Origin: Nitrososphaerota archaeon
GTDB lineage: Archaea; Thermoproteota; Nitrososphaeria; Nitrososphaerales; Gagatemarchaeaceae
Assembly: GCA_016193005.1 (NCBI GenBank)
Contig: JACPTA010000032.1
Location: forward strand, 1 to 42,033
Direction of reading: 5' to 3'
Length of the DNA stretch: 42,033 nt
Below, piece by piece: positions 35,820 to 40,371 of this stretch. How positions within the stretch are numbered: position 1 is the stretch's first letter; every line of letters begins with the position of its first letter. A program made the position numbers and the translations under genes. The notes below the pieces were generated by a model. The model did not search any database, was not told where the DNA came from, and saw only the letters and a program-made list of their open reading frames with translations.

Positions 35820-36434
35820 TCATGAAATCGCCGCTTGGAACTCTTCGACGGTCTTCACCAAGTGATAGCTGCCCCCGCCTGTCGCAGCGATGTCCTGCAT
35901 GATCTTGGTAGAAACATCTGAAATCTCTAGAGAGTTCAATACTATCCCTGCGCTGCGAATCTTCTCAGCTACTGGGGTTGCACTTGGACCTTCCGGCGTC
36001 CCGTCGCTTATGAAATCTATCCGCTTCACCTTGCGAAGGGATTCGCTCACCGTCATGTAGGCGTACTCCAAGCCATCGACGAACCAGCTTCCACCCTTCG
36101 GTCCGAGGTCATCCAGTCTGTAAAGCTCGAGCGTAGGGGGCGTGGGGTAAAGCGGAACGATCACCTCATAGACCGTCTCGCCAGGAGTGCCTAGCAGCCT
36201 GAAGGCCACGATGCTAATACGCAGCGGCCGATCATAGTATGATACGGGCCACCTCTCGAAACAGAATGTTTTCAATCCTTCTCTTACGATATCAAAGCGT
36301 CGAGCTTTGGTGCCTCGAACCTTATGGTTCATGCTCCCGGAGGCATCAACAAGAAAGAGTCGGTCTTCGACGCCGATATCGGAGTCTCTCAACGCGGCGG
36401 AGGACTGCCGCTTCCTAAAGATTATTAAAGTCAT
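35820..36434 (-). CDS. VWA-domain protein divergent from the tubulin-like gene
   Basis: Von Willebrand A domain protein of 204 residues from the ATG at 36434. The MIDAS motif is LFLVDASGSM (Asp30, Ser32, Ser34), followed by a region where the third MIDAS Thr position seems to be Ser (GGSWFVDGLEYA), and DFISDGTPEG supplies the second Asp. No signal peptide or membrane segment; it looks cytoplasmic and consists almost wholly of the VWA domain. The frame opens at 36521, but the first 29 residues are Cys/His-rich, overlap the divergent gene and look non-coding. Such proteins usually bind a partner through the metal ion; the tubulin-like protein is the likely one. Confidence 0.85.
   Translation of the reverse strand: MTLIIFRKRQSSAALRDSDIGVEDRLFLVDASGSMNHKVRGTKARRFDIVREGLKTFCFERWPVSYYDRPLRISIVAFRLLGTPGETVYEVIVPLYPTPPTLELYRLDDLGPKGGSWFVDGLEYAYMTVSESLRKVKRIDFISDGTPEGPSATPVAEKIRSAGIVLNSLEISDVSTKIMQDIAATGGGSYHLVKTVEEFQAAIS
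36421..36430 (+). promoter_or_regulatory. TATA-like box for the tubulin-like gene
   Basis: ATTATTAAAG centred near 36426, 27 nt before the ATG at 36453, predicts a leaderless message. It lies inside the first codons of the divergent VWA gene, so the two promoters must overlap. Confidence 0.5.
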
Positions 36435-36452
36435 CAAAGTGGCAGAAGGCAT

Positions 36453-37820
36453 ATGGCATTCAGGGGGGCACTGCAGGCACCACTGGCCCCCAATCCGGTC
36501 ATCATGGCAAGCATGGGACACGCGGGGGTTGGAATCGGAGCGGAAGCCTACAGATGGGTACTCATGGATGTGGGTGCAGATCCAAAGGCTCCGACTGTTA
36601 GAGGGGAGAAGGAACAGCTCGAAGTACTAAGAAGGTACGGCAGTACGATTCTCAGGTTCGGCACCTCGATAAGAAGGGGAGAGACTCCTCTCGTTCCCAG
36701 GGCTCTGCTGGTTGATTTGGACCCGCGCTCCGCCAACTTGATCCTTCAATCTTATCCTGAACTTTTTGCCATGCGTGACAAGCATGCGCTCTACGGGCTT
36801 GGCGGTGCAGCGCGCAACTGGGCCGAGGGAAGAGTTCGGTTCAGGCAGGAGATAGAGAAGAAACAAGACATCATGAGCCGCATCACGGCCATCTCACCAG
36901 AACCGGTCAGGGGTTTCATCATTCCGTTTAGCATGGGAGGAGGAACGGGCGGTTCGTTCTCGTCCGAGTTCATGCGCTATGCGAAGACTGCCGAGGACTT
37001 CGGGGCATCCACTGTCGCCGGATTCGGAATCCTGCCCGAGTTTGGATGGGACCCAGTGATTCCAGGTCCAGCACACATAAGCATAGTCATGAATCTGGCC
37101 CACCAGATCAGGTATTGCGACACTCCAGTCCTTGTGGAGAACAAGGCGATGAGGATGCAGGCTGAGAGACTCAAGGAACTCTTCGCAAAGAGGGGTTCGA
37201 TTGTTGACGAGCTACCGAAGCAGATTCAGGTCGGCTGGAAGGAGTACAGGAACGTCAATCTCATCGCAGCCCATGCGATCGCAGAATTCATGTCATCTTT
37301 CATCCGTGAGACAGAGTGGGACATGTCGAACTACAGGACTTGGCTCGCCGCTTCGAAACCAAAGTTCGTGGTACCATGGTTGATGCCGATCGCTCCTCAG
37401 GGTGCGCCGACTCTCAAGTCGCTCGAGGAGCAGCTCAAGCAAGGGAACGAGGGTGTTCTCTTCGACCTCGGCGAGGAGGATGGCCAAGTCAAGCCAGGGC
37501 CGAGAGATTCCGCCTGCGTGCTCGTGAAAATCAAGGGAACTCTGGGAGCTGAGGATAGGGAGTTTCTGAAGAAGATCGTGAAGGACAGGTTTGAGATTCA
37601 GGATAGCAGAATCATCTTCATCAGGGTACCTGCGTTGGATAACGAGGCGGCTTCTGCGATGGTGCTCCTGAACCTGAAGGCTGCCGGCCAAAGATTGCTA
37701 CCCCTTATCAAGGAGGCAGAAGAGTCGTGGGATGCATACAAGGACGAGTACCAGAAGAGAGGACTCTCGACCGAAGAATTCAAGCAGGCCGTGCTTGATA
37801 CGACTGGTCACATAGGGTAG
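36453..37820 (+). CDS. tubulin/FtsZ-superfamily GTPase (FtsZ-like, not canonical FtsZ)
   Basis: A 455-residue protein with the landmarks of the tubulin fold in order. GHAGVGIGAEAYRW (residues 22-35) sits at the first nucleotide loop, VDLDP (87-91) at the T3 region, LGGAARNWAEG (116-126) matches the tubulin GAxNNWAxG segment, and FSMGGGTGGSFSSE (159-172) is the signature loop, GGGTGG in place of GGGTGSG. VLVENKAM (226-233) matches the ribose-contacting DNEAL, and NVNLIAAHAIAEFM (267-280) is helix H7 with its guanine-contacting Asn. In the T7 loop, EWDMSNY (288-294) has Asn at 293 where catalytic Asp/Glu is expected. The C-terminal domain (from about 305) has no FtsZ peptide tail. It probably polymerises; partners would be the VWA and coiled-coil proteins. 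Confidence 0.82.
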   Translation: MAFRGALQAPLAPNPVIMASMGHAGVGIGAEAYRWVLMDVGADPKAPTVRGEKEQLEVLRRYGSTILRFGTSIRRGETPLVPRALLVDLDPRSANLILQSYPELFAMRDKHALYGLGGAARNWAEGRVRFRQEIEKKQDIMSRITAISPEPVRGFIIPFSMGGGTGGSFSSEFMRYAKTAEDFGASTVAGFGILPEFGWDPVIPGPAHISIVMNLAHQIRYCDTPVLVENKAMRMQAERLKELFAKRGSIVDELPKQIQVGWKEYRNVNLIAAHAIAEFMSSFIRETEWDMSNYRTWLAASKPKFVVPWLMPIAPQGAPTLKSLEEQLKQGNEGVLFDLGEEDGQVKPGPRDSACVLVKIKGTLGAEDREFLKKIVKDRFEIQDSRIIFIRVPALDNEAASAMVLLNLKAAGQRLLPLIKEAEESWDAYKDEYQKRGLSTEEFKQAVLDTTGHIG

Positions 37821-37828
37821 GTACTCTA

Positions 37829-38386
37829 TTGGACCTCTCGGAACTTGAGGTTATAGCGGCGCAACTGCTGGAAGAACAGAAGCGGCACAGACAGTTGATG
37901 GCCGAACTGACACGGATACGAAACGAGCTGAGAGAGAAACCTAGACGGGACGAGAAGGACAAGAAATTCCATACGCTCATAGGCGTGCATTGGGAGCAGC
38001 CACGGGAACTTGAAGAGAAGGCAAAGGTCCTAACTTTGGAGGATGAGCAGTTGATGAAATCTACGAGGGCTCTGACAGAGAAGATCGTCGAGGCGTTCTC
38101 CTCAGGCGCGCTGACAGTGCCCCTTGACCCTACTCAGGTGAAAGTTGCCGGCAATAGTCACTTCCGCTACCGCTCGAACGCCACCTTTCCAAAGTCCGTC
38201 CAGGCTCTTTCCGAGTTGCTCGGACTTCCGATTCCCTTGACCGTCGACGACGTCGTGATCGAGCCAGACCGGATCCAAGTGGCTGAGTCCGACCCATACT
38301 ATGCGAAGGAGAAGATCGTCGAGGCCTTCGATAAGATCAGGAAAACTGTAGCGCTGAAGCTGGCCACGACAAAGACCTGGCCCTGA
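37829..38386 (+). CDS. coiled-coil protein of the tubulin-like module
   Basis: A 185-residue protein whose first 60 or so residues are highly charged and helical (ELEVIAAQLLEEQKRHRQLM, then AELTRIRNELREK), a likely coiled coil. The rest alternates helices and strands and has no motif I recognise. No signal or membrane segment. The start is TTG at 37829, 8 nt after the tubulin-like stop, so it is co-transcribed and possibly an adaptor, regulator or membrane linker for the filament. Function is inferred from position only. Confidence 0.75.
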   Translation: MDLSELEVIAAQLLEEQKRHRQLMAELTRIRNELREKPRRDEKDKKFHTLIGVHWEQPRELEEKAKVLTLEDEQLMKSTRALTEKIVEAFSSGALTVPLDPTQVKVAGNSHFRYRSNATFPKSVQALSELLGLPIPLTVDDVVIEPDRIQVAESDPYYAKEKIVEAFDKIRKTVALKLATTKTWP

Positions 38387-39276: not shown

Positions 39277-39903
39277 TTGCCCCTCCCCGAGCTCCTTCAA
39301 GCCGTTGGCACGGGAGTCCTCCTGGGGCTTTCGATCGCCGCACCTCCTGGTCCGATTAACGCGACGATAGCCACACAGGTTGCCACCAGATCATGGTTCG
39401 CCGGATTCCTTGTGGGACTCGGTGCGCTGACGGCTGACGCCACATTCTTCCTCATCACCTTCTACGGTCTCACGAGAGCAATCGTGGGCAATGAGTCAGG
39501 GATCATTCTCTTCGCAGCTGGCGGCGTGATGATGCTGTTCATGTCATTCTCGACTTTCAAACACGCAAGGTCGAAGGCTGGAATGAAAACTGGTCGGCAA
39601 GCGCGTTTTCCCTACCTGATTGGGCTCTCGATTGGGCTGACTAACCCGTTCCAAATCGGGTGGTGGGTGACTGTGGGTCTGGGCGTGCTTGCCACGTTTG
39701 GGCTGAGAATCCTTGTTGGCTTCTTCGCAGGGATTTCATTATGGGTTCTCGCGTACACAACGTCTCTGGCCTGGGCGGTGTCGAAATACTACAGGCTGTA
39801 CCCATACATAACCTACTCGTCTGCGATCGCTCTGGCAGCCTTCGGACTCTGGTTCCTACTTACGGCGTCCCTGAGGCTCGTCCAAGTCCTTCTCATGTTG
39901 TAG
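39277..39903 (+). CDS. LysE/RhtB-family exporter
   Basis: Predicted six-helix membrane exporter for amino acids or similar small molecules. LGLSIAAPPGPINATIATQ (near the N-terminus) is the LysE signature with the PGP motif, and IGLTNPFQIGWWVTVG in the second half is the inverted repeat of it. I start at TTG 39277, which gives 208 residues, the family's usual length, and fits the promoter. The ATG at 39190 adds 29 polar residues upstream of the first helix. The 3' end overlaps the convergent phosphatase gene by 48 bp. Confidence 0.9.
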   Translation: MPLPELLQAVGTGVLLGLSIAAPPGPINATIATQVATRSWFAGFLVGLGALTADATFFLITFYGLTRAIVGNESGIILFAAGGVMMLFMSFSTFKHARSKAGMKTGRQARFPYLIGLSIGLTNPFQIGWWVTVGLGVLATFGLRILVGFFAGISLWVLAYTTSLAWAVSKYYRLYPYITYSSAIALAAFGLWFLLTASLRLVQVLLML

Positions 39904-40371
39904 GAGGAACTTCTCCTGAAGAAATTCTACCGAGCCGGGCCTCTTCCTTCTAAGAAACTGTATTGCCTCCCTTATCGAGAGCCCTCTGTTCTCCGCGAGG
40001 AAGACGGCGAGCACAGTTCCCGTCCTCCCCTTTCCTGCCAAGCAGTGGACGTGGACTGCCCTCCCAGAACTTAGCTCACTCTTGATCAAAGCAACCGCCT
40101 CTTTCAGTTCATTGATGCTGGGGCCTAGGTGGTCGCTCATTGCAACGTGTACCCCCTTGATTCGATTCCTCTCGAGCCATTCCATCGGCAGGGGGTCCTC
40201 GGTCAAGGTGAGGATTGTTTTCACGCCACTCCTTGCCAACCATGCCACCTGTTTCTCGGATGAGGGCAGACTGGAAGCCGAGAGGACTCCGTCGTCAATC
40301 CATGTGAAGAATGCGGGCCGGTCGACGAAACCTGCGCGGAGCTTTCTGTAGATCCTTCCTGCTCGTCCCAA
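39856..40371 (-). CDS. dual-specificity protein phosphatase
   Basis: Cys-based phosphatase of 171 residues. The P-loop VHCLAGKGRTGTVLA (near residue 108) contains the CX5R signature, and the general-acid Asp is probably in SDHLGPSI (near residue 79). Compact archaeal DSPs of this length act on phospho-Tyr/Ser/Thr or on other phosphate compounds. The start is TTG at 40371. The stop lies 48 bp inside the convergent LysE gene. Confidence 0.92.
   Translation of the reverse strand: MGRAGRIYRKLRAGFVDRPAFFTWIDDGVLSASSLPSSEKQVAWLARSGVKTILTLTEDPLPMEWLERNRIKGVHVAMSDHLGPSINELKEAVALIKSELSSGRAVHVHCLAGKGRTGTVLAVFLAENRGLSIREAIQFLRRKRPGSVEFLQEKFLLQHEKDLDEPQGRRK

Follow-up and report, generated by a model that had tools for sequence, protein, structure and literature searches.

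The window analysed here, a stretch of 42,033 nucleotides from a Nitrososphaerota archaeon, contains a gene for a tubulin-like protein with a small gene directly behind it and a VWA-domain gene facing away from it, and this raises the question of which tubulin-superfamily protein is encoded and what the two neighbours have to do with it. A sequence-only reading had taken the three genes for an archaeal version of an FtsZ-like/VWA membrane-remodelling system. Its gene layout was found to be right: the 455-aa protein is encoded on the forward strand, its stop codon is followed after 8 nt by the TTG start of the neighbour, and the VWA gene starts 18 bp away in the divergent direction (counted from the ATG at 36434, the first in-frame ATG of a full ORF at 35820-36521 (-)). 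The features are as follows.

35820..36434 (-): VWA-domain gene, 204 aa from the ATG at 36434, motif DASGS; PF00092, E = 2.2e-5; family-specific member
36421..36429 (+): TATA-like box ATTATTAAA, about 27 bp 5' of the artubulin start and within the first VWA codons; consensus reading
36453..37820 (+): artubulin gene, 455-aa tubulin-superfamily GTPase; PF00091, E = 1.4e-11; orthologues 53-72% identical in the same order; PDB profile matches
36936..36950 (+): T4 GTP-binding glycine loop GGGTG, artubulin residues 162-166; near-invariant across artubulins
37305..37346 (+): T7 loop RETEWDMSNYRTWL, artubulin residues 285-298; aligned by profile with alpha and gamma tubulin
37829..38386 (+): artubulin partner gene, 185 aa, TTG start; in tandem with artubulin in relatives; AlphaFold pLDDT 87

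Since orthologues were found in the same arrangement in other genomes, these three genes are not chance ORFs.

The tubulin landmarks of the 455-aa protein are GHAGVGIGAE (T1), GGGTG at 162-166 (T4), N230 (T6), and the T7 loop at 285-298. Its sole Pfam match is Tubulin (PF00091, E = 1.4e-11, 45.4 bits against a cut-off of 33). In a PDB search, Asgard AtubB ranked first with the single sequence (2.4e-16) and with the family profile (2.4e-22), followed by other Asgard tubulins, gamma-tubulin (4e-14 by profile), and beta-tubulin. The best 60 PDB matches were all tubulins, and FtsZ was absent from them. Furthermore, profile comparison by hhalign gave a clear match to human alpha and gamma tubulin (probability 98.7, E = 3.8e-16, 402 columns, reaching the C-terminal helices; both human sequences were verified against their PDB copies) and a probability of 6.4 (E = 0.0057) against FtsZ of the same archaeal order. 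An AlphaFold model built from 15 sequences was poor (pLDDT 51); thus, the evidence for the fold is the sequence, and the Foldseek tubulin matches of that model carry little weight.

The closest known relatives are the artubulins of Nitrosotalea, Nitrosotenuis, and Nitrosarchaeum (53-57% identity; for the last two, 53-55% across residues 9-451), genera of the same order as the window's family, which may correspond to the soil/acid lineage of group I.1c. Orthologues (53-72% identity) were found in 34 of 121 relatives and at 80 named loci, including Candidatus Nitrosotalea devanaterra, Nitrosotenuis chungbukensis, and Nitrosarchaeum. Two further weak matches among the 121 relatives, both to FtsZl1-type proteins about 900 aa long, are not counted in the 34. 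In a 398-genome sample of the phylum, strong artubulin matches were confined to this one order. The Nitrosarchaeum orthologue adjoins Snf7, CMP/dCMP deaminase, DNA polymerase, and TIM genes, which is the published artubulin locus. In addition, the maximum-likelihood tree placed all artubulins, the window protein within them, in one clade (99/97), and grouped artubulins with eukaryotic tubulins apart from FtsZ (100/100, with long branches). Because it is orthologous to these proteins and the Nitrosarchaeum gene lies in the published locus, the 455-aa protein is, judged by sequence, an artubulin, a member of an archaeal clade of the tubulin family. Artubulin itself is already known.

Artubulins were described by Yutin and Koonin in 2012 with a Snf7/ESCRT-III neighbour (PMC3349469). 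No Snf7/ESCRT-III gene lies beside the window artubulin, and among the genera examined Snf7 is adjacent in Nitrosarchaeum only, where it lies upstream of artubulin. As the Nitrosotenuis artubulin also has no adjacent Snf7 (PMC3835317), this neighbour does not define the family. The position of artubulins relative to Asgard and eukaryotic tubulins has been called unresolved (PMC13394414), and the literature we found holds no biochemical data on any artubulin.

The results of the neighbourhood survey showed that the gene behind artubulin is its constant companion. At 29 of 29 loci in relatives, and at all 74 of the named loci that extend far enough, it follows artubulin directly and in the same orientation, the spacing between the two ranging from -20 to +18 nt (L078, L090, and L092 end too early, and L107, L109, and L111 are cut within artubulin, so these six were left out of the 74). 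All 34 artubulin genomes among the relatives carry the partner. Meanwhile, the window's family (f1) includes 23 genomes with both genes and 23 with neither. The surroundings of the loci fall into nine context groups besides the window (about ten in all), so the artubulin-partner tandem survives changes of context. One genome, G057, records a joint loss: it has no artubulin, and all that is left of the partner is a pseudogene, interrupted by four stops, beside a thioredoxin reductase gene, the same gene that flanks the intact pair in a relative of G057 (L052). The pair has thus been gained, moved, and lost together. The pair statistics together with this co-loss are good evidence that the two genes depend on each other functionally. 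We also observed two artubulin-partner pairs in G047 (G047:C7 and G047:C69), each still paired.

The partner has no match among Pfam and NCBIfam families. Its TTG start is backed by homologues that begin with M(N/D)L(T/S)ELE. The AlphaFold model (pLDDT 87) consists of a helical hairpin (3-50 and 60-91), a small alpha/beta domain, and a C-terminal helix. Since the hairpin is limited to the N-terminal part, the coiled-coil label first given to this protein fits its N-terminal half and fails for the C-terminal half. The suggestion that it is an undescribed component has stood up, in that no description of the partner turned up in the literature search. No structural relative was found in the PDB by sequence search or Foldseek, nor among viral models, so any role given to it is a guess. 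Snf7/ESCRT-III was tried as an identity and rejected: PF03357 is not among the 25 Pfam families listed at E <= 1 for 23 partner proteins, out of 26 matched in total, and the 26th was matched by a single member at most. As a positive control, Snf7 of the Nitrosarchaeum locus matches PF03357 at 3.3e-7. Homologues of the partner also exist apart from artubulin. Family f2 has full-length divergent homologues without artubulin (hhalign 99.7), and family f8 has the C-terminal domain alone, with no artubulin at that locus (hhalign 98.9). Thus, the partner fold has artubulin-independent uses. At the f2 loci L169-L174, the homologue adjoins a radical SAM gene and an archaellin/pilin-like gene.

The VWA gene is distributed differently. 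The window protein matches PF00092 at 2.2e-5 (25.2 bits, cut-off 23.8) and its L035 orthologue at 2.3e-8; the MIDAS motif DxSxS reads DASGS in the window and DGSRS in relatives, and orthologues share 37-42% identity. The gene is divergent to artubulin at 18 of 18 named f1 loci and at none of the artubulin loci outside f1, being absent at those of f10, f13, and f3. The earlier expectation of a conserved neighbourhood was thus borne out for the artubulin-partner pair wherever it could be seen, and for VWA inside f1 only. Of the 23 f1 artubulin genomes, 21 have VWA, and the loci of the remaining two are cut at contig ends; VWA is kept in at least four surroundings (the window, L050, L034, and the main g7 site); and it is missing alongside artubulin in nearly all congeners without artubulin. 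It should be noted that a family-wide VWA HMM was tainted by a 714-aa read-through ORF (L004/L034) running antisense through artubulin, and secondary matches to antisense ORFs were discarded. On this distribution, VWA is an independent, family-restricted associate of artubulin; as the window protein is an artubulin and not an FtsZl1, the VWA link is not derived from the FtsZl1 system. Joint control of VWA and artubulin is plausible because a TATA-like box stands before artubulin and at the start of the VWA gene in the window. This box, ATTATTAAA, is the positional counterpart of GTATAAAAAAG, which is found 5' of artubulin in nearly all related-genus loci.

The GTP site is highly conserved. The T4 residues GGTG are invariant in all 77 artubulins with letters there, and the first G is present in 76 of 77; T1 (GHxGxGxGAE), T4 (GGGTG), and T6 (N230) are kept in 75-77 sequences. 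In tubulin, GTP hydrolysis is triggered by the T7 loop of the adjoining subunit, which in alpha-tubulin acts through E254. In the profile-profile alignment, alpha-tubulin D251 corresponds to artubulin D290, and the catalytic E254 corresponds to N293. Asparagine occupies this position in 77 of 78 artubulins, and the position is never acidic. By established tubulin biochemistry, polymers with this replacement would be expected to hydrolyse GTP slowly and to be stable, or else to depend on help in trans. Hydrolysis may nonetheless persist with N293, because E286, E288, and D290 are close by.

Considering these results together, we favour as the probable reading a cassette with an accessory role, in which a GTPase filament and its dedicated partner would be made from one transcript and a VWA adaptor would be added in f1. 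Artubulin would bind GTP and assemble into tubulin-type protofilaments. With asparagine in place of E254, it would hydrolyse GTP slowly and form stable filaments, or would need a factor; the partner would be that dedicated factor, most likely a subunit from the same transcript that binds, crosslinks, or nucleates filaments. The VWA protein would be an adaptor specific to this lineage, probably metal-dependent, that links the filament to something else. FtsZ and Snf7-type proteins are mostly kept in genomes with and without the cassette. As congeners without it keep FtsZ and ESCRT-III-type proteins, its role is most likely accessory and cytoskeletal (organisation of shape, membrane, or cargo) and not obligatory in division. 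A bolder form of this reading, which we put forward tentatively, is that of an obligate two-component filament in which the partner would make up in trans for the deficit of T7, through nucleation, lateral bonds, or GTPase activation, and the cassette would move as a unit. If true, this would be an archaeal system of a tubulin plus an associated protein, independent of or earlier than eukaryotic microtubule-associated proteins.

Several other explanations bear on the same evidence. Instead of being a filament component, the partner could be an artubulin-specific folding or assembly chaperone, functionally comparable to tubulin cofactor A or stathmin. The obligate tandem and the co-loss are no less to be expected of a dedicated chaperone, and the small size and helical hairpin of the partner point the same way; however, it resembles no known cofactor, and the occurrence of its C-terminal alpha/beta domain alone in a family without artubulin there would be unusual for a client-specific chaperone. 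We regard this as a serious but somewhat unlikely explanation. A little less likely still, in our opinion, is that VWA is just a frozen neighbour with no functional tie to the pair. The restriction to one family, the opposite strand, and the low identity among orthologues would fit such a neighbour; they are to be set against its retention in all but the two truncated f1 artubulin genomes, in several different surroundings, and its absence together with artubulin in nearly all congeners that have no artubulin.

Mobility has to be considered too. The ribosomal-protein genes rps28e and rpl24e are 13-140 bp apart in G004, G014, G022, and G025 (block-lacking congeners and a sister genus), and at L035, the main-genus site, they are split by a block of VWA, artubulin, partner, and a hypothetical gene. 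The operon is uninterrupted in some genomes and split in others, so the block has been gained or lost as a unit. This behaviour, and the differing surroundings of the block, would be expected of a mobile-element segregation or defence cassette, in which a TubZ-like filament with an adaptor was moved between chromosomal sites. Nevertheless, several genomes have the block on long or complete chromosomes, neither an integrase nor a DNA-binding adaptor was seen within it, the clade structure of the tree is near-vertical, and artubulin is as conserved across families (53-72%) as a host gene would be, which makes such an origin improbable. The least probable explanation, and one we hardly credit, is the FtsZl1-VWA membrane-remodelling system proposed at the outset. 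FtsZl1 genes typically have VWA genes as partners (Makarova and Koonin 2010, PMC2875224), and here a VWA gene does adjoin a tubulin-superfamily gene. However, FtsZl1 proteins are about 1000 aa long, with an internal extended coiled coil (PMC2875224), and carry a Tubulin_2 domain. The window protein is half that length, aligns along its length with tubulin, has a recognisable T6-H7-T7 region, and shows neither an internal coiled coil nor a Tubulin_2 (PF13809) match; a true FtsZl1 from a relative (L185, 902 aa), used as a positive control, does match PF13809 at 1.4e-11. In addition, VWA is on the opposite strand and missing at the f10, f13, and f3 artubulin loci, and the ORFs beside the window module included no recognisable kinase, P-loop GTPase, or OmpA gene. 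The similarity to FtsZl1/VWA is one of superfamily and VWA neighbour, and the difference is one of family and partners.

Compared with the named artubulins of Nitrosarchaeum, Nitrosotenuis, and Nitrosotalea (PMC3349469; PMC3835317), the window protein is orthologous over its full length, has the same T1, T4, T6, and T7 motifs, and is followed by the same partner, which was found here and is unreported in those two papers. It differs in coming from a new archaeal family, without the adjacent Snf7 and with an extra divergent VWA gene. Asgard AtubA/AtubB and OdinTubulin (PMC13394414, PMC9871819) share the tubulin-family GTPase domain and gave the best PDB profile match (2.4e-22). The Asgard tubulins form an A/B pair, unlike the single tubulin on a long branch in the window. 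OdinTubulin is flanked by coiled-coil genes too, and such neighbours of archaeal tubulin-like genes have been mentioned in general terms (PMC9871819). In Prosthecobacter, the prokaryotic tubulin BtubA/B likewise has an accessory gene of its own next to it (bacterial kinesin-light-chain-like; PMC3349469), but there are two tubulins and a TPR accessory protein, whereas the window partner is coiled-coil plus alpha/beta. Eukaryotic gamma-tubulin shares the GTPase-domain motifs (GGGAGNNWASG versus GLGGAARNWAEG) and a full-length profile alignment at only about 20% identity to the window artubulin. To our knowledge, no gamma-tubulin complex proteins are known in these archaea.

Since 2012, the literature has pointed to artubulins as possible relatives of the tubulin ancestral to that of eukaryotes. 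In the non-subscription literature, we found no paper on an obligate partner, its co-loss, the family-wide T7 substitution, the VWA association, or an artubulin in the window's family. An obligate, co-lost partner gene offers a specific experimental handle on artubulin function, and it replaces as a functional clue the Snf7 neighbourhood, which is peculiar to one genus among those examined. Furthermore, as artubulins almost invariably lack the T7 residue that triggers hydrolysis, a sharp, testable prediction on filament dynamics follows.

Some further observations were made around these loci. The window has a dual-specificity phosphatase gene 1.5 kb downstream of the module (39856-40371 (-), PF22784, 5.9e-25), and in f8 such a gene is directly beside the short partner homologue twice (L175 459-1013; L179 5592-6152). 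Phosphatase and partner-type domain are possibly an old neighbourhood. The hypothetical protein of 314 aa (L035 11952-12896), which follows the pair in most family loci and has a weak PaaX-like match (0.03), is unlinked in the window's genome (L202; 33% identity).

The FtsZl1 gene mentioned above (L185 2205-4913, G051:C9), from the same order, is followed by genes for membrane-anchored and coiled-coil proteins; it is a system separate from artubulin. The other PF00091 protein of the window's genome (L001 961-2007 (-), G000:C235) is a divergent FtsZ on a very long branch (3.8), with the T4 loop GGAVGSG instead of GGGTGSG. Finally, L093 (BMAH01000059.1) and L034 (DAIDAO010000036.1) are typical thaumarchaeal artubulin loci titled Gammaproteobacteria bacterium and bacterium, respectively; these titles look wrong, or the assemblies look mixed.
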